Part shown: positions 3,368 to 63,747 of the stretch, one piece after another | Position numbering within the stretch: position 1 is the first letter of the stretch | Layout of the letters: every line of letters begins with the position of its first letter | Source of the DNA: Maritalea porphyrae | Lineage (GTDB): Bacteria > Pseudomonadota > Alphaproteobacteria > Rhizobiales > Devosiaceae | Direction: 5' to 3' | Assembly (NCBI RefSeq): GCF_030159895.1 | Contig: NZ_BSNI01000002.1 | Coordinates: 1,204,306-1,268,305, forward strand | Length of the DNA: 64,000 bases | The notes under the pieces: generated by a model | What the model was told of the DNA's origin: nothing | Seen by the model: the letters and a program-made list of their open reading frames with translations, nothing else | The model's database searches: none | Translations under genes and position numbers: made by a program

Positions 3368-4512
3368 GTTCCAAAAGTGCACTCAGTTCCGCGCAAGTGA
3401 AGGCCCTTGATTCAGCTGGGATAGAAATCAACCATTATCACAGCTCAATGTTCCAAGGGGAAAACATCCATCAAGCATGGATCGACGATTGTGCAAGATA
3501 CTTGCAGTGCATTTTTGGTGACAAAATCGCTGGCAAAACAGTGGTCGATTACGGCTTTGGACGGGGCAATTGGAGTTTGGCATTTAGACAGCTTGGTGCC
3601 GAACATGTAATCAGCATTGAAGCGTCGCAAAACGCAGCTGAAAACTTTAAGCGGTATGTAAAAGATCACGAAATTCAAAACATATCGGTTCAATTGGGAA
3701 ATACTGATGATCAAGAGCTGCACATTGAAGCGGATATCGTTTTCCTTTACGGCATTTTGCATCACGTAAAGCACCCAGAACGACTACTTGGCAGTGCGCG
3801 TCATTGGTTGAAAGATGAGCAAAGTCAAATACTTGCTTATGCCTATGATGCGGGTTCAATGCGGGAGATGCTGGTTTCTGCATGTCGCAAATTGTTGGGG
3901 ACCGAAAAACCTGAACCTAGTTGGGAACTCGCGCTGCACCCGCTGGCACGACACCGAGCAGTCGATGATTTAGTTGCACCGATAGTTAGTTTTTGGACCC
4001 CCAAACAGTTGGTAGACGTCGCAAACGATGCTGGCTTGAAACCAATTGGACAAGAAAAAGACTTTTCGAATTTTCAGAACAAGTCGCTTGCCCCCGAGTT
4101 TGATCCTTACATTTTGTTGTTAAAGGCAAATGCCGCGCAAGAGGAGACAATTGAACCGATTGCAAATGCTCATCAATATATCGATGAATATAAGGTGATT
4201 GGCGAAGCGCTTGATTTAGTCGTGCAACATGCGCCGGCGCAATCAAAACCAAACATTGCCATCGGGATATTCAATAGCTGGTTTGCCGGCGCGCAACCAG
4301 CGTCATTTGAAGATAAACTGTTCTATTTATGGCGATATTTGTGCCATGCGATCAACACGATGCCCCAGGACTTAGTCTTCGCGTCGACAAGCGACGAATT
4401 GGAAACCTTGTTGTTTCTTACCCGTCGCATGAGCCATAAGAAATCAGATGAGTTGATGCGCAACTGCGAAATGCTCAAAGACAAAATCACAAACAATTCG
4501 TTCAGAATTTAG
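3364..4512 (+). CDS. SAM-dependent methyltransferase, class I
   Basis: The 382-residue protein has a Rossmann methyltransferase domain in its first half: motif I VDYGFGRGNW at residues 61-70 and ADIVFLYGILHHV near 123-135, as in methyltransferase family 11/12 proteins. The C-terminal 130 residues are helical-looking and unassigned. It starts with GTG inside the stop of the PhyH gene, so translation is probably coupled. It may methylate a sugar hydroxyl in the same pathway as the neighbouring carbamoyltransferase; this is inference from context. Confidence 0.85.
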   Translation: MSSKSALSSAQVKALDSAGIEINHYHSSMFQGENIHQAWIDDCARYLQCIFGDKIAGKTVVDYGFGRGNWSLAFRQLGAEHVISIEASQNAAENFKRYVKDHEIQNISVQLGNTDDQELHIEADIVFLYGILHHVKHPERLLGSARHWLKDEQSQILAYAYDAGSMREMLVSACRKLLGTEKPEPSWELALHPLARHRAVDDLVAPIVSFWTPKQLVDVANDAGLKPIGQEKDFSNFQNKSLAPEFDPYILLLKANAAQEETIEPIANAHQYIDEYKVIGEALDLVVQHAPAQSKPNIAIGIFNSWFAGAQPASFEDKLFYLWRYLCHAINTMPQDLVFASTSDELETLLFLTRRMSHKKSDELMRNCEMLKDKITNNSFRI

Positions 4513-4560: not shown

Positions 4561-6144
4561 ATGAAATCTCTAGGCCTTCACAAAGATCCTTGGCACAATA
4601 CAGGTGCATGCGCCATCTCGGGCCATGATGGCGAATACAATATCGCGTTCTTGTCTGAAGAGCGGCTGGATCGAGTAAAAGACAGCCGTGCGTTCCCTCA
4701 GAAGTCCATTGAAGCGTGTATGCGGCATCTCGATGTACCCAGCATCTCCCAGTTCGATGCCGTCGTGATGGACTATATAGAAACCGACAAAGACTGGCGT
4801 CTTGATCAGTTTCGGCGACCTTGTTCGACGGAAAATCTGCTGCGCGATGTTGTGCCCGAGCGCATCCATATGATCGACCACCATTTGTGCCATGCTTACG
4901 CTGCATTTATGACCTCGCCGTTTGAGGAAGCTGCGATACTGATTGTGGATGGGCGGGGATCCAACAAGCAAACCCAATCGCTGTTTATTGGTTCAGGCAA
5001 CTCGATCAAGTTCATTGAAGGCACAGATACAATTGGTATTGGTTTGCTTTATGCGGCGATGACCCAGCATATCGGTTTTGGCAATCTGCAAGAGGGAAAA
5101 ACCATGGGCTTGGCCCCCTACGGCGCAAATGAGCCGCCGCTTGCATATGATTTTGATGGCAGATTTGAAGGCATCCGCACCAGCTACGAGACCTTTTGTG
5201 TTGAAGGAAACTATTCGCTTCGCCAAGACATCTTATCGCCATCTACCTTTGCTGAACAAGCACGCGCTGCCTATGAAACACAGATGGAGTGCGAACGTGC
5301 GTTACTTCATTTGGGGAAATATGCCCGCAAAGTGACGGGCATGCCAAACCTTTGCCTTTCAGGCGGTGTCGCACTCAACTCTGTAGCAAACAACTCCTTG
5401 CTCAAGGCGAGGATTTTTGACGATATTTTCATCAACCCAGCCGCCTCCGATACGGGAATACCGCTAGGTGCGGCCTATTATGGGCACTATGCTCTGGGGC
5501 AAAACAAGCGGCGGGCAGGGGAGATTTCACCCTATTTGGGCCCTACCTATTCTAGCGAACGTATCGACGAGGCTATTGCGGTTTTCTCTGGCTACAAGAT
5601 TGTCCGAGACAATGCATTGAAACAAGCAATTGAGATGCTGTGCGCCAACAAAATAGTTGCGCGCTTTGAAGGGCGTAGCGAAATGGGCCCACGGGCGTTA
5701 GGTCATCGATCAATATTGATGAACCCATTGATTGCCGAAAACAAAGACGTGCTAAATGCGCGTGTAAAGTTCCGCGAGGAGTTTCGGCCGTTCGCACCGA
5801 TTGTGATGGAAGAGCACAGCCAAGACTATTTCGACATCGATCGACCGTGTCCCTATATGTTGCTGGTGCCAAATGTTCTGCCGAACAAGCGCGACGTCAT
5901 CCCAGCTGTCACTCATGTTGATGGGACAGCTCGTGTGCAAACGGTCACACAAAGCTTTAACGGCAAGCTCTATACGATACTTGAAGCTTTTGACGAAAAA
6001 ACCGGCGTTCCCGTATTGCTAAATACCAGCTTCAATGTTGCAGGTGAGCCGATCGTCGAAACGCCCGAAGACGCCATAAAGTGTTTCCTTGGCACTGATA
6101 TTGATGCGCTTTTTATCGAAGATGTTTTGTTGGTGAAAAACTAA
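4561..6144 (+). CDS. Carbamoyltransferase, NodU/CmcH/TobZ family
   Basis: The 527-residue protein is full length for the family. The N-terminal Kae1-like domain has DHHLCHAYAA (H107, H108, H111) and IVDGRG; the C-terminal domain has EMGPRALGHRSIL and LLNTSFNVAGEPIVETPEDA. NodU-type enzymes transfer a carbamoyl group from carbamoyl phosphate through carbamoyl-adenylate to a sugar hydroxyl. I start at ATG 4561 because MKSLGLHKDPWHNTGACAI matches the family N-terminus; a TTG at 4525 would add 12 unrelated residues. It is the third gene of the PhyH-methyltransferase-carbamoyltransferase set. Confidence 0.93.
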   Translation: MKSLGLHKDPWHNTGACAISGHDGEYNIAFLSEERLDRVKDSRAFPQKSIEACMRHLDVPSISQFDAVVMDYIETDKDWRLDQFRRPCSTENLLRDVVPERIHMIDHHLCHAYAAFMTSPFEEAAILIVDGRGSNKQTQSLFIGSGNSIKFIEGTDTIGIGLLYAAMTQHIGFGNLQEGKTMGLAPYGANEPPLAYDFDGRFEGIRTSYETFCVEGNYSLRQDILSPSTFAEQARAAYETQMECERALLHLGKYARKVTGMPNLCLSGGVALNSVANNSLLKARIFDDIFINPAASDTGIPLGAAYYGHYALGQNKRRAGEISPYLGPTYSSERIDEAIAVFSGYKIVRDNALKQAIEMLCANKIVARFEGRSEMGPRALGHRSILMNPLIAENKDVLNARVKFREEFRPFAPIVMEEHSQDYFDIDRPCPYMLLVPNVLPNKRDVIPAVTHVDGTARVQTVTQSFNGKLYTILEAFDEKTGVPVLLNTSFNVAGEPIVETPEDAIKCFLGTDIDALFIEDVLLVKN

Positions 6145-6270: not shown

Positions 6271-7263
6271 ATGGCGTTTAATGCAATGGTGGTGCGCAAA
6301 GATGATCAGGGTAAAACCTCAGCGCAACTCGAGCAGCTCGAGCTTGATCAACTTCCCGATGGCGACGTAACTGTAGCGATTGAGTATTCAACGCTGAATT
6401 ACAAAGATGGCCTGTGCTTGGGTCCTGGTGGTGGATTGGTTCGAAACTACCCCCATGTTCCGGGTATCGACTTTGCCGGAACGGTCGAAGCCTCCAACGA
6501 TGCGCGATATAAAGCCGGCGACAAAGTTGTGCTGACCGGTTGGAATGTGGGCGAAAACTGGTGGGGTGGTTACGCGCAAAAGGGACGTGTAAAGGCGGAT
6601 TGGCTTGTCCCATTGCCTCAAGGCTTGAGCACCAAAGACGCAATGGCGGTTGGTACTGCGGGCTTCACCGCAATGTTGGCCACCATGGCTTTGGAAGATC
6701 ACGGCCTTAAGCCGGAGAACGGCCCAGTATTGGTAACTGGCGCTGCCGGTGGTGTGGGCTCTGTGGCGACGGCCATCCTCTCCAATTTGGGCTATGAAGT
6801 TGCAGGTGTGACGGGGCGCCCTGAAACCGCGGAATATCTAAAATCACTTGGCGCCACAACGATTGTGCCGCGCAATGAACTAAATGAAACGGTCAAACGT
6901 CCACTTGAAAGCGAAACATGGGCTGGATGCATCGACGCTGTGGGTGGCGAAATGCTGGCGCGCGTGCTTGGCCAAATGAAATATGGCACTTCTGTCGCCG
7001 CTGTTGGTTTGGCCGGTGGCGCGCATCTTCCTGCAACGGTCATTCCGTTTTTGCTGCGCGGCGTGAACCTGTTGGGCATCGATTCAGTGCGGCGCCCATA
7101 TGAGGATCGCGTGCGGGCATGGAAGCGTGTGGCAACTGATCTGCCAATGGACAAGTTGAATGAAATGGTTGAGCCAGCAACGTTGAAAGACCTGCCGGCG
7201 CTTGGCAAAGCCATTTTAGCCGGTGAAGTGCGCGGCCGCGTCGTGGTGGATGTAAATGCCTAA
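6271..7263 (+). CDS. acuI: Acrylyl-CoA reductase / quinone oxidoreductase (AcuI/YhdH family)
   Basis: The 330-residue protein is a zinc-free medium-chain dehydrogenase/reductase of the YhdH/AcuI group. It has the NADPH-binding VTGAAGGVGSVA motif, the LNYKDGLCL segment near the N-terminus and GRVVVDVN at the end. AcuI reduces acryloyl-CoA to propionyl-CoA and is important in marine DMSP users. The exact substrate here is not proven by sequence alone. ATG 6271 is preceded by GGGAG at 6259-6263; an in-frame upstream start at 6229 lacks such a site. Confidence 0.88.
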   Translation: MAFNAMVVRKDDQGKTSAQLEQLELDQLPDGDVTVAIEYSTLNYKDGLCLGPGGGLVRNYPHVPGIDFAGTVEASNDARYKAGDKVVLTGWNVGENWWGGYAQKGRVKADWLVPLPQGLSTKDAMAVGTAGFTAMLATMALEDHGLKPENGPVLVTGAAGGVGSVATAILSNLGYEVAGVTGRPETAEYLKSLGATTIVPRNELNETVKRPLESETWAGCIDAVGGEMLARVLGQMKYGTSVAAVGLAGGAHLPATVIPFLLRGVNLLGIDSVRRPYEDRVRAWKRVATDLPMDKLNEMVEPATLKDLPALGKAILAGEVRGRVVVDVNA

Positions 7264-7289
7264 GTGCGATACGCTAGCGTAATCGCTTA
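7261..7289. other. Palindrome spanning two convergent stop codons
   Basis: The segment contains ACGCTAGCGT (7271-7280) flanked by GCGAT and ATCGC, giving a near-perfect palindrome. It overlaps the stop of the CmcI-like gene on the minus strand and abuts the acuI stop. There is no T-run, but it may act as a shared 3' end or block read-through. Confidence 0.4.
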
Positions 7290-8041
7290 ACGAAAGCGCT
7301 TGGCCAATAAGTTACGCGTTTTTCCAAAACACCTTCATTGAAGGGCCATTTGGGCTCTTCAATAGCAAAGTTCGAATTGTTTTTGGTGAACTCAATCGCG
7401 GCCGCTTTGGGGTTGGATGTTTTCCAATCTTCGCCAGTTCTCGGGCCACCCGCTACCAATTCCATGATTCCGTCAGCCGCAACGATGTAGCAACCGGGGG
7501 TAACCAATTCGCCATATGCCTCTAGCTCTTTCAAAACGTGAGGCTTCTTGTGATTTGAATCAAGCATCACCATTACTTTTTCGCCCGGCTTGATCTTCGA
7601 CTTTACGGTCTCGATTGTTTTCGGGTCGATGGATGAGCCTTCAACGATTTCAATAAGGCTTCTTAAGGGGTGAGCATCGATTGCTTTGCGATTGTGGTCG
7701 CGCAATTCAATTTCAACACCAATAACGCGCCCCTTTCCAATAGCCTTGAACAAGCTTGCATAAAAAACTAGCGAACCGCCATGTGCGACGCCGGTTTCTA
7801 CAATAACGTCAGGTTGGTGGTCCCAAATTACTTCTTGGATGCGGATCATGTCCTCTGGCAGTTGGATGATTGGGCGCCCGAACCAAGAAAAGCTATAGAT
7901 GTATTTTGTGTCCCAACTGGCACGCAGCCAAGCCTCAGACATGACTTCAAATGCTTTTGCGCTTTCGAGCGGATAAACTTCCTCAGTTCCATCGTCGTGC
8001 TGCTTTGTTACGGTGCCTTTTTTGTCATCAAAAATAATCAT
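7274..8041 (-). CDS. CmcI-like cephalosporin hydroxylase family protein
   Basis: The 255-residue protein belongs to the CmcI family, which has a Rossmann methyltransferase-like fold and includes proteins of antibiotic and O-antigen clusters. Visible marks are SFSWFGRPIIQLPEDM, DVIVETGVAHGGSLVFYAS (nucleotide-binding glycine loop), VIGVEIELRDHNR and VMLDSNHKKPHVLKELE. In polysaccharide loci such proteins are annotated as hydroxylases or methyltransferases; the true reaction is unsure. I start at the internal ATG 8041 (MIIFDDKKG) by family fit; an ATG at 8116 in the same frame would add 25 residues. It is convergent with acuI. Confidence 0.85.
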   Translation of the reverse strand: MIIFDDKKGTVTKQHDDGTEEVYPLESAKAFEVMSEAWLRASWDTKYIYSFSWFGRPIIQLPEDMIRIQEVIWDHQPDVIVETGVAHGGSLVFYASLFKAIGKGRVIGVEIELRDHNRKAIDAHPLRSLIEIVEGSSIDPKTIETVKSKIKPGEKVMVMLDSNHKKPHVLKELEAYGELVTPGCYIVAADGIMELVAGGPRTGEDWKTSNPKAAAIEFTKNNSNFAIEEPKWPFNEGVLEKRVTYWPSAFVKRLR

Positions 8042-60487: not shown

Positions 60488-61582
60488 CTACCGCACCACC
60501 GTGATCCGTTCTGCGGCACGCGTTACCGCCGTATAGAGGTGCCGCGCGCGGTCTTCGCGGAATGCCCAACTTTCGTCAAACAAATAAACATCATCCCACT
60601 GGCTGCCTTGCGCCTTGTGCACGGTGAGGGCATAGCCGAAATAGAACTCGTCATATTTCTTGCGCTCACCCCAACCTAGTTCTTCTTCTTTACCGTGGAA
60701 GAATTTTTCGTGCGTGGTGACGTTGGCGCGGTTCGTGCGGTCGCCAGCATCGTCTGGATTAAGGACCATATCGAGCACGCCAAGGCCCTTATAGACCACA
60801 TCTTCGGCAATCCAGAGTTGCCCATTAAGCAACTGTTTTTGATGGTTGTTTCTCAAGCAGATCAAGCGGTCGCCAACCACAGGCTCTTGCGCTGGTAAGT
60901 CTTTGAGGGCACGCACGCGATCATTGTAGGAGATGCGGGTGGCGTTGGTGCCGCACAGGATTTGATCGGCGGCGAGGACCTCTTCGCGCTCCACATCGCG
61001 TTTCCGCACCACCTTGGACTGATCATAGGTGCCATAATCCAATCGGCCATTTTCGCGGATTTCCAAAGATAGCCGCACAATTGGATTGTCTGCTGCTTGT
61101 CGGTGAATTTCAGTGAGCATGAAGTCAGGCTCGGCTTGGGTGAAATAGCCTGTGTCATTAATCGGTGGCAGTTGAAACGGGTCGCCCAAAACAAGCACTT
61201 TGGTGCCAAAAGACAGCAAGTCTTCCGCCAATTGCTGGCCGACCATCGACACTTCGTCGATCACGATCAGCTCCGCGTCGCACACATCGCTATCGTCGTT
61301 CAATTTGAACTGCGGGTTGCCCTGTTTGTCATTCACATATTTGTAGATGAGACTGTGAATGGTGGAAGCGCCTTCGCACCCACGGCGCCGCATCACCAAG
61401 GCTGCTTTGCCGGTAAATGCTGCAAATACAACGCTGCCCACATTCTTCGCTAAATGCACCGCGAGAGTGGATTTGCCAGTGCCTGCCCATCCAAATAGGC
61501 GGAATACTTGCGGCCCATTTTTGTCTTTGAGCCAAGCATCAACAGCCTTTAGGGCTTCATCTTGTTGGGGCGACCATTGCAT
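60488..61582 (-). CDS. RecD/Dda-like superfamily 1 DNA helicase
   Basis: The 364-residue protein has Walker A FGWAGTGKSTLA, Walker B LIVIDEVSMVG, LVLGDPFQLPPI (motif III) and the C-terminal VHKAQGSQWDDV and YTAVTRAAERI (motifs V-VI). This is the compact ATP-dependent helicase type seen in phage T4 Dda and bacterial RecD-like proteins. It should unwind DNA 5' to 3'. Length is shorter than RecD2, so N-terminal extra domains are missing. It may be a chromosomal or a phage-derived gene; the surroundings show no other phage gene. Confidence 0.9.
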   Translation of the reverse strand: MQWSPQQDEALKAVDAWLKDKNGPQVFRLFGWAGTGKSTLAVHLAKNVGSVVFAAFTGKAALVMRRRGCEGASTIHSLIYKYVNDKQGNPQFKLNDDSDVCDAELIVIDEVSMVGQQLAEDLLSFGTKVLVLGDPFQLPPINDTGYFTQAEPDFMLTEIHRQAADNPIVRLSLEIRENGRLDYGTYDQSKVVRKRDVEREEVLAADQILCGTNATRISYNDRVRALKDLPAQEPVVGDRLICLRNNHQKQLLNGQLWIAEDVVYKGLGVLDMVLNPDDAGDRTNRANVTTHEKFFHGKEEELGWGERKKYDEFYFGYALTVHKAQGSQWDDVYLFDESWAFREDRARHLYTAVTRAAERITVVR

Positions 61583-61658: not shown

Positions 61659-62408
61659 CTATTTCAGCTCGCCGGGCAGGCTCAGGTTGCCTGATGCGAC
61701 ATCAAATACATTCGTGACACACAATAGAGGCGCGTGAATGCTCGCATTGACCCGTAATGCTGAAGTCACTCCATCATAGTTGGTGCCAGCAAGATCTGTG
61801 TCTTGTGAGAAGGGCGCGTTGACCACAATCTCGTCGCCATCAAACACTGGGGAGTATCCGGGGCTGTCGATAAATATGGGTAGTCCTGGCCAGGTGAGGG
61901 GCAATTTGGGCGTTGTGCCATCGGCAATGTCGCGAACCGCCAATGCGCCATCACCACATGCATCGTTTCCAGTCATAACCACCCAGTGTGAATGCCAAAG
62001 ATCTCCGTCATTGGCCAAGTCGCCATCGCCGTTTTCATCGTAAAGCGGTGTGTCATCAAAGTCAGGGTGGCTGGTGGCAGCCAATGCAAGAATGCCCGTT
62101 TTCGCTTCAAAGCCAACTGTGGAAGGGTCAAGCGATGTTGGCCAGACATAGGCATAAACCGGGGCGCCGGCCAATTCACCATGCGCGGACGGCTTCTCCG
62201 CGCCCGATTTGCCCGCTGTCGTCATGTGAAAAGTCACCACATTGCCCTTGCGGTGGGCGTGTGCGGCCAAAATGTCAAATGATGCATGCACGGCCTCATT
62301 TGCCCCTGACTTGATGGCGTTGTCCATTTTGTGCGCGTGAACGCCGTCAGCAAAACTGGGAAGGGTGAGTGTTGCTGTCAAAGCGGAAGCGATAGCTAAT
62401 TTATTCAT
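61659..62408 (-). CDS. Secreted protein of unknown function
   Basis: The 249-residue protein has a Sec signal peptide (MNKLAIASALTATLTLPSFADG, cut probably after SFA). The mature part has a DENGDGDLANDGD calcium-loop-like segment and four acidic patches, but I recognise no family. An N-terminal HAHKMDNAIK stretch is His-rich. It is divergent from a MarR protein with a Cys cluster and shares a large palindromic region with it, so it is probably induced under a metal or redox signal. Confidence 0.7.
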   Translation of the reverse strand: MNKLAIASALTATLTLPSFADGVHAHKMDNAIKSGANEAVHASFDILAAHAHRKGNVVTFHMTTAGKSGAEKPSAHGELAGAPVYAYVWPTSLDPSTVGFEAKTGILALAATSHPDFDDTPLYDENGDGDLANDGDLWHSHWVVMTGNDACGDGALAVRDIADGTTPKLPLTWPGLPIFIDSPGYSPVFDGDEIVVNAPFSQDTDLAGTNYDGVTSALRVNASIHAPLLCVTNVFDVASGNLSLPGELK

Positions 62409-62440
62409 TTCAATCTCCGTTGGTTGATGGGAGCGACATA

Positions 62441-62487
62441 TAATAGCGAATCGAAACTATTGCAATAGTGGTTTTGACTCGCTATTA
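62441..62487. promoter_or_regulatory. Large nested operator between the secreted protein and MarR genes
   Basis: TAATAGCGA (62441-62449) is mirrored by TCGCTATTA (62479-62487), with the perfect palindrome ACTATTGCAATAGT (62456-62469) between. GAAAC and GTTTT extend the symmetry. It is likely bound by the MarR protein. Confidence 0.65.
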
Positions 62488-62494
62488 CTTTCGC

Positions 62495-63043
62495 ATGTCA
62501 GAATCAAAACAACGAATCAGCGATCTGTTGGATCGAATCAGTCGCCTAAACCAGTCTCAGTCTTGGGATGATGGGTTGAATCCTGCGCAGTTGGCGGCAT
62601 TGCGCTATTTGGTCGCTGCAAACCAATTTTCGCGAGCGCCATCGCATGTCGCAGACTATCTGGGGGCAACGCGCGGAACGGTTTCGCAATCTTTAAAAAC
62701 GTTGGACGGTAAGGGGCTTATCACTCAAATCCGATCTTCATCAGATAAGCGTCGTGCCCGATATGATGTAACGCCTCAAGGACACGCTCTATTGGGTTCA
62801 CCAACCCAAACTGATAGTGCAATTGAGCAATTAGACGAAAATGAAAGAGCGCATCTTGCAAAATTGTTAAGTAATGTGTTGCATATGACATTGCGCGCTC
62901 GGGGCGGCAAAAGTTTTGGTATTTGTAAGAACTGCAAGCATCATGGAATGAAAGCAAAACGGCCATACTGTCGATTGCTTGATGTTGAACTGGCAGATCA
63001 CGAAATTGATCAGATCTGTCATGAACATGAGACTGCGGCTTAA
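62495..63043 (+). CDS. MarR family regulator with C-terminal four-cysteine motif
   Basis: The 182-residue protein has a MarR winged helix (PSHVADYLGATRGTVSQSLKTLDGKGLI, DKRRARYDVTPQG) at residues 20-135. A C-terminal segment with C144, C147, C159 and C175 (CKNC, YC, ICHEH) could bind a Fe-S cluster or zinc and so sense redox or metal. ATG 62495 keeps the palindromic operator upstream; an in-frame TTG at 62468 would lie inside it. The neighbouring divergent gene encodes a secreted protein, and the MOSC gene follows after 17 bases. Confidence 0.85.
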   Translation: MSESKQRISDLLDRISRLNQSQSWDDGLNPAQLAALRYLVAANQFSRAPSHVADYLGATRGTVSQSLKTLDGKGLITQIRSSSDKRRARYDVTPQGHALLGSPTQTDSAIEQLDENERAHLAKLLSNVLHMTLRARGGKSFGICKNCKHHGMKAKRPYCRLLDVELADHEIDQICHEHETAA

Positions 63044-63060
63044 GTTTTTTGAGAGATTTT

Positions 63061-63747
63061 ATGAAGTTCACAACACCAGTTTTGGGCCTGTTCGTTGGTA
63101 AAGCAAAAGAACGTTGGCCCGGGAAACCGCCAAGCGCCATTGCAAAGTTCGCCGCAAATGGCCGACAGCAGCTCATCGAAACTGGTTTTGTAACCGATGC
63201 ACAAGCCGATTTGCGCGTTCATGGCGGCGCAGATAAGGCGGTCCACCATTATCCCGCTGACCATTACTCAGCTTGGCAAGCCAAAAAATTCGACACCTCA
63301 TTTGCGTTTAGGCCCGGCGGTTTTGGCGAGAATATTTCAACAGCCGGTATTGTTGAAAGTGATGTTTGCCTTGGCGATATTTTTGAGCTTGGCACGGCGC
63401 GTGTCCAAATCTCACAAGGTCGACAACCCTGCTGGAAATTGAACATGCATTCGCGGGTGAAACATATGGCTGTGGAACTGCAAAATAGCGGCAAAACAGG
63501 CTGGTACTATCGTGTTTTGCAGCAGGGTGAAGTCCAGCTTGGGGATCAGCTGAAACTGATAGAGCGGCCGATTGAGCAATGGCCGCTGAACAGGCTGATT
63601 AGCGCACGTTTCGACAAAAACCTGCCGCGATTGATCGCCAAAGAGCTTTGCGAGTATCCCGAACTAGCCAAAAATTGGCGTCAGCATTTTTATAAACGGG
63701 CAAACACTGATTTTGTAGAAGATCAAACCCCAAGGCTTGTTGGGTAA
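63061..63747 (+). CDS. MOSC domain protein, YiiM-like
   Basis: The 228-residue protein has a MOSC domain of the YiiM type: HGGADKAVHHYPADHY, FGENISTAGI and ISQGRQPCWKLNMH with the conserved Cys. YiiM binds molybdenum cofactor and reduces N-hydroxylated compounds such as 6-hydroxylaminopurine. GAGAG precedes ATG 63061. It is probably cotranscribed with the MarR gene 17 bases upstream. Confidence 0.92.
   Translation: MKFTTPVLGLFVGKAKERWPGKPPSAIAKFAANGRQQLIETGFVTDAQADLRVHGGADKAVHHYPADHYSAWQAKKFDTSFAFRPGGFGENISTAGIVESDVCLGDIFELGTARVQISQGRQPCWKLNMHSRVKHMAVELQNSGKTGWYYRVLQQGEVQLGDQLKLIERPIEQWPLNRLISARFDKNLPRLIAKELCEYPELAKNWRQHFYKRANTDFVEDQTPRLVG

Follow-up and report, generated by a model that had tools for sequence, protein, structure and literature searches.

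A conserved MarR-family regulator with a four-cysteine tail and its secreted partner: a candidate stress switch in Maritalea porphyrae

The window analyzed here, a 64,000-nucleotide stretch of DNA from Maritalea porphyrae, contains a divergent pair of genes followed on one side by a third. Sec, a secreted protein without a known family (249 residues, predicted to be a beta-sandwich), is encoded on the minus strand at positions 61659–62408, and a MarR-family regulator of 182 residues on the plus strand at 62495–63043; the gene for a YiiM-like MOSC protein of 228 residues (63061–63747, plus strand) starts 17 nucleotides past the MarR stop. The MarR start is taken as the ATG at 62495 in preference to a longer alternative, the GTG at 62468, because the starts of relatives agree. 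The regulator carries a Cys4 tail (C-x2-C-x11-C-x15-C, codons 144–175, positions 62924–63019, plus strand), and the four cysteines singled out by the first-pass annotation, C144, C147, C159, and C175, are the only ones in the protein. An AAA_30/UvrD_C_2 helicase-like gene (60488–61582, minus strand) adjoins Sec in the window and, with identity above 92%, also in genomes G114 and G115; this is probably mere neighborhood.

The regulator matches the Pfam model MarR_2 (PF12802) with 40.4 bits against a cut-off of 27, and its core is a standard winged-helix fold, with structural Z scores of up to 13.0 over residues 1–136. In the structural comparison (MarR 1–139), the 50 matches listed all stop at model residue 142 or earlier, short of the tail. 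The tail is nonetheless predicted to be structured: the model of the protein has a mean confidence of 90.5, and of 92–94 over residues 141–180, where it forms a short hairpin and a helix, and all four cysteines are invariant in 77 aligned sequences. The spacing x2, x11, x15 is found in 67 of 76 tails and the x15 element in 75 of 76, with longer loops in a second branch of MarRs; invariant cysteines around a loop of variable length suggest a metal site. Cysteines able to hold the Fe-S cluster that had been suggested for them are thus conserved, but four cysteines would fit zinc equally well. When 24 tails were scanned against Pfam, all matches were weak and HiPIP was absent among them; the DZR_2 zinc ribbon gave a weak match in 9 of the 24 (best E 0.0031, below the cut-off; 14.1 bits against 27 for the tail in the window) and LRV_FeS a match in one (E 0.13), so that these profiles lean to zinc more than to Fe-S. 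The idea that the tail is a known fold was dropped, as a profile built from 24 of the 77 tails matched no sequence in the PDB at E ≤ 10 and the Pfam matches were weak, although it should be noted that short sequences weaken such a search. A phage origin of MarR was likewise set aside, one scan of viral contigs having yielded no relative.

These features of the tail bear on two readings in which it is not a sensor metal site. The zinc-type profiles, as its best weak matches, and the standard MarR fold of the core would suit a purely structural zinc, with a small organic ligand sensed in the MarR pocket and handled by Sec and MOSC; we regard this as rather unlikely in light of the gene neighborhoods discussed below. 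A plain thiol-disulfide switch of the OhrR type, without metal, is improbable, because OhrR-type sensors have one or two cysteines, whereas the four invariant cysteines, CxxC knuckle, and variable loop found here resemble a metal site. On the other hand, a redoxin is often a neighbor, and thiol-based MarR sensors are known, as PMC12506092 describes for OhrR.

The nested palindrome reported between the two divergent genes is real. The arms of its outer inverted repeat (62441–62487, unstranded), at 62441–62457 and 62471–62487, are 88% complementary, and a perfect inner 7-base pair lies at 62456–62469. By consensus scoring, the palindrome is made up of two operator-like sites of 13 bp with the form TAKCGASTCGMTA, both unstranded, namely O1 (TAGCGAATCGAAA, 62444–62456) and O2 (TTTTGACTCGCTA, 62472–62484, 28 bp from O1), which flank a self-complementary TTGCAA (62460–62465, unstranded). 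Of the 77 intergenic regions compared, those of 76 relatives and of the window, 76 contain two sites that agree with TAKCGASTCGMTA in at least 10 of 13 positions; as the consensus itself was derived by eye from these regions, the count is not independent. Dinucleotide shuffles (n = 1540) contained two sites in 0.26% and one site in 9.7%, placing the arrangement beyond chance. The spacing between sites is 28 in 42 of the 77 regions and 42–43 in 23. The palindromes are operator-like, and the MarR dimer is the predicted binder.

The layout also suggests where the promoters may lie. TTGCAA is present in 70 of the 77 regions, and in 67 of these it is located 28–30 nucleotides before the chosen MarR start, the starts of relatives having been chosen by a length rule, the distance to the first tail cysteine. 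It is proposed as a −35 element common to both promoters; a 17-nucleotide spacer then leads to TATTAC (62483–62488, plus strand, 6 nucleotides before the ATG) as the MarR −10 and to TATATG (62437–62442, minus strand) as the Sec −10, and each operator-like site sits inside the spacer of one of the two proposed divergent promoters. The proposed −10 is not independent evidence for a promoter because its first TA also ends the operator. On the Sec side, a hexamer starting with TA at the 17-nucleotide spacing is less uniform among the regions, and where the sites are 42–43 apart, Sec probably uses another −35. An SD-like sequence lies ahead of Sec in 72 of the 77 regions and ahead of MarR in 10, and given its rarity before MarR, the MarR mRNA is probably leaderless.

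A wider regulon was considered and rejected, since matches to ATAGCGANTCGAAA at 0–1 mismatch in the organism's own genome are confined to the two arms at this locus; 56 other sites in that genome need two mismatches and are fewer than in the reversed control. Across eight genomes, exact TAKCGASTCGMTA was found only in G039 and G002, in each case at this locus. One-mismatch TAKCGASTCGMTA sites do exist elsewhere in the eight genomes, three of them in the own genome, whose own locus is missing from that set because its sites deviate by more; further targets elsewhere in the genome may therefore exist.

When 136 genomes from the family were searched with the MarR, close relatives were found in G114, G115, G112, G113, G039, G011, and G002, and in all seven Sec is divergent beside MarR; MOSC is found, in regions of 14–15 kb, only in the four of these that belong to the same genus. 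G111, of the same genus, gave only weak MarR matches, with no close relative and no Sec. On a larger scale, an alignment scan for Sec identified at least 577 relatives among 591 candidate stretches, and in the best 80 loci of this set a divergent, adjacent MarR with all four cysteines accompanies Sec in 76. The exceptions, L047, L102, L119, and L113, are without such a neighbor; in L113, a distant four-Cys MarR lies about 4 kb from Sec, beside a MOSC gene. When Sec alone was searched in a phylum sample, it was found in 15 of 398 genomes (the own genome included), and a four-Cys MarR lay within about 1.5 kb in 14 of 17 Sec places, with the own locus counted and a broken fragment, L167, left out; none was found within that distance in L153, L155, and L166. 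Comparison at the level of sequence thus establishes the genes, their pairing, the conserved cysteines, and the operator-like sites with their layout, and it lends good support to the switch initially proposed for these genes, as the divergent pair, the two sites, and the four cysteines are conserved together.

The converse, that the tail is confined to the pairing with Sec, does not hold. Among 61 MarR loci, which are the matches of several MarR searches with the own locus counted twice, 23 have the tail and Sec, 14 the tail without Sec, one Sec without the tail, and 23 neither; 14 of 37 tailed loci are accordingly without Sec within about 1.5 kb. It should be recognized that the compared loci represent related lineages rather than independent events and that single tail calls may err because the tail was recognized by a regular expression. 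The sole locus with Sec and no tail (L008, G011) is a relative with a frame break inside the tail. A MarR frame that breaks at the tail CxxC is seen in L037 (G011, about 7225–7632, minus strand), where the adjoining Sec is intact and loss of the MarR tail is probable. Three genomes (G193, G197, and G281) place a four-Cys MarR (L216, L217, and L218, respectively) in a common gene setting, and Sec, MOSC, redoxin, and HTHP are all absent within 10 kb; the tail therefore has other clients.

In more distant four-Cys MarRs (L012, L016, L017, and L029), which form the second branch, the gene is in tandem with Sec, not divergent. TAGGASTCCTA, an 11-mer that likewise follows the odd-palindrome theme, is present in 6 of 17 second-branch or related loci (L016, L017, L029, L178, L206, and L227). 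In L113 (Massilia arenae), two TAGGAGTC half-palindromes, at 3588 and 3759, lie upstream of a gene resembling that for the AhpD-like peroxidase-related enzyme and near redoxin and Sec; they are a possible second-branch operator. The module also occurs on plasmids: those of Deinococcus and Hymenobacter carry Sec and a four-Cys MarR within one gene cluster, two Leisingera plasmids carry Sec with redoxin and without a MarR alongside, and a pattern search of a Vibrio campbellii plasmid with Sec returned no four-Cys MarR.

Sec was initially described as a secreted protein of unknown family, and this description is retained: the N terminus is signal-like, as judged by eye, and the protein has no match to any Pfam or NCBIfam model at E ≤ 1 and no informative PDB sequence match. 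Its model consists mainly of strands (mean confidence 83.9, pTM 0.81). No Foldseek match was obtained at E ≤ 0.001, which does not imply a new fold, and in the structural comparison all matches are below Z 8, the best being the gamma subunit of ethylbenzene dehydrogenase (6.6), followed by CBM9 (6.4), NxrC (6.2), an antibody (6.1), and the cytochrome of cellobiose dehydrogenase (5.2). From these model-based matches, a heme-binding sandwich is a lead and no more. Residues invariant in 81 Sec sequences include H114, D116, D118, D119, D124, E125, D134, H139, H141, and H225. Such histidines and acidic residues would be in keeping with a tail that senses a metal (zinc, copper, or iron) in a repressor of metal homeostasis, with Sec as a periplasmic metal binder, but no family of metal transporters or efflux proteins recurs among the neighbor clusters listed, and inspection by eye indicates that a Hymenobacter relative of Sec is without H225 and has Glu in place of D118; this explanation is unlikely.

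The assignment of the downstream gene as a YiiM-like MOSC protein was borne out. The MOSC domain (PF03473) is matched with an E value of 1.3e-33 (116 bits against a cut-off of 22.7), and a comparison with PDB sequences at E ≤ 0.01 gave three YiiM entries and nothing else, aligned over nearly the full length. The description "molybdenum-linked enzyme" may be kept as a family assignment. The protein resembles E. coli YiiM, a 6-N-hydroxylaminopurine reductase, in its MOSC domain and in the extent of these matches, but differs in falling short of the NCBIfam equivalog NF008577 (YiiM, 6-hydroxyaminopurine reductase; 173.4 bits against a cut-off of 294). The YiiM 3-alpha domain (PF03475) is below cut-off in the window (17.5 bits against 22.7) and above it in a relative, L092 (36.8 bits). 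In E. coli, 6-N-hydroxylaminopurine is reduced by YiiM and YcbX, as described in the cited part of PMC3831636.

The redox theme of the first-pass annotation gains support from recurring neighbors, which include redoxin, HTHP, catalase, Hmp, and protoglobin. Up to a distance of 2.5 kb from Sec, the 80 best loci contain MOSC in 44, redoxin in 34, HTHP in 16, GST in 9, and an AhpD-like protein in 1; at least one among MOSC, redoxin, HTHP, and AhpD-like is present in 64 of the 80, and 36 have no MOSC at this distance. One or more of these five neighbors is found in 16 of 36 tailed MarR loci (3.4–3.6 kb) and in none of the 23 tail-less loci, which also have no Sec; this count overlaps with that for the Sec loci, since the 36 include many of the latter. 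In 8 of 12 longer regions around tailed MarRs without Sec, there is no MOSC, redoxin, HTHP, AhpD-like protein, or GST. The fullest set is that of Ruegeria pomeroyi DSS-3, where MOSC-MarR is divergent from Sec-HTHP-redoxin-MOSC-PDR/VanB oxidoreductase. A plasmid of Hymenobacter volaticus carries hmpA (an NO-inducible flavohemoprotein), Rrf2, catalase, Sec, HTHP, protoglobin, DUF2024, a four-Cys MarR, and MOSC, and Rhizobium SL42 has catalase, a four-Cys MarR, Sec, and a peroxidase-related enzyme. The locus of Phaeobacter inhibens, situated among a ring-hydroxylating dioxygenase and oxidoreductases, is in keeping with an organic ligand and a structural zinc; that reading is opposed by the recurrence of redox and heme proteins as neighbors in three phyla and by the fact that, in the loci compared, Sec tracks the tail rather than the MarR core.

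Since the pair and the double operator recur in numerous bacteria, often beside genes of oxidant or nitrogen stress, the locus is probably an overlooked stress switch, and the reading that we favor, with somewhat more confidence than doubt, is that of a dedicated, autoregulated Cys4 MarR switch, responsive to oxidant or NO, over MarR itself, Sec, and MOSC. We infer repression, the cofactor, the signal, and the function of Sec, as well as the leaderless MarR mRNA, and the sequence of events would be as follows. The C-x2-C-x11-C-x15-C tail of the MarR dimer would fold into a small metal module, with zinc or Fe-S, and the dimer would occupy the two 13-bp operators; as each operator lies between the common −35 and one of the divergent −10 elements, binding would shut both promoters. 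Attack on the Cys4 site, by an oxidant or by a reactive nitrogen species such as nitric oxide, would cause the repressor to release the DNA; Sec would be made and exported, and marR-mosc would also be made, the MOSC protein then reducing N-hydroxylated compounds. A bolder version is tentative: that MarR is an Fe-S sensor of NO or peroxide over an undescribed ROS/RNS defense module in Pseudomonadota, Deinococcota, and Bacteroidota, in which a new class of secreted beta-sandwich, perhaps heme- or metal-binding, acts with a YiiM-like MOSC, redoxin, and HTHP. As judged from the sequences compared, the conserved module is strong, the circuit would be an ordinary autoregulated divergent MarR, the tail is unusual, and the secreted partner is unstudied.

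Like MarR repressors, of which FabT and MepR are nearest by profile, the present protein has a winged-helix core, divergent genes, and palindromic sites over promoters, but it differs from the FabT/MepR type in adding a 40-residue Cys4 tail. SufR is a four-Cys Fe-S repressor in which a winged helix is followed by widely spaced cysteines, as in the present MarR, although the spacing differs. ArnR of Corynebacterium is a winged-helix [4Fe-4S] regulator that loses DNA binding with NO and in which, similarly, a MarR/ArsR-like DNA-binding domain is joined to a cysteine domain at the C terminus; the likeness is by description, and the cited passages of PMC12343034 give three conserved cysteines (179, 193, and 223) and no fourth, in contrast to the four found here. 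No description of the Sec-MarR pairing was found in the open-access papers searched. If the favored reading is correct, the MarR family gains a branch that probably bears a metal or a cluster, a secreted family that is widespread and unannotated (the at least 577 relatives among 591 candidate stretches) gains a job, and YiiM-like MOSC, redoxin, and HTHP join one regulated stress pathway. The parts are small and are present in R. pomeroyi DSS-3 and P. inhibens DSM 17395 also, so that the idea is directly testable.

Several neighbors merit separate comment. In G501 (L224, 4473–6135), a cytochrome P460 takes the place of Sec, divergent from a four-Cys MarR and followed by the kind of redoxin found after Sec in other loci, which is a hint of hydroxylamine or NO chemistry. 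The idea that P460 regularly replaces Sec was rejected: among the 30 P460 loci examined, a tailed MarR adjoins only the one from which the idea came. HTHP was similarly rejected as a core partner, being present in 5 of 385 genomes, with Sec near one of the five. The HTHP of R. pomeroyi, under the name Silicibacter pomeroyi, has been studied for peroxide electrocatalysis, according to the cited part of PMC4813847; in strain DSS-3, HTHP and redoxin follow Sec, which is divergent from the four-Cys MarR, whereas in the window neither is next to Sec. In G115, of the same genus, HTHP (L004, 2927–3151) comes directly after Sec, and this gene, absent in the window, is one that has been gained or lost within the genus. 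The DUF2024 gene of the Hymenobacter cluster is at 6070–6333 of L177, and in L156 (1168–2513), near Sec, there is a small protein that by eye is like DUF2024, together with a small thioredoxin-like protein.
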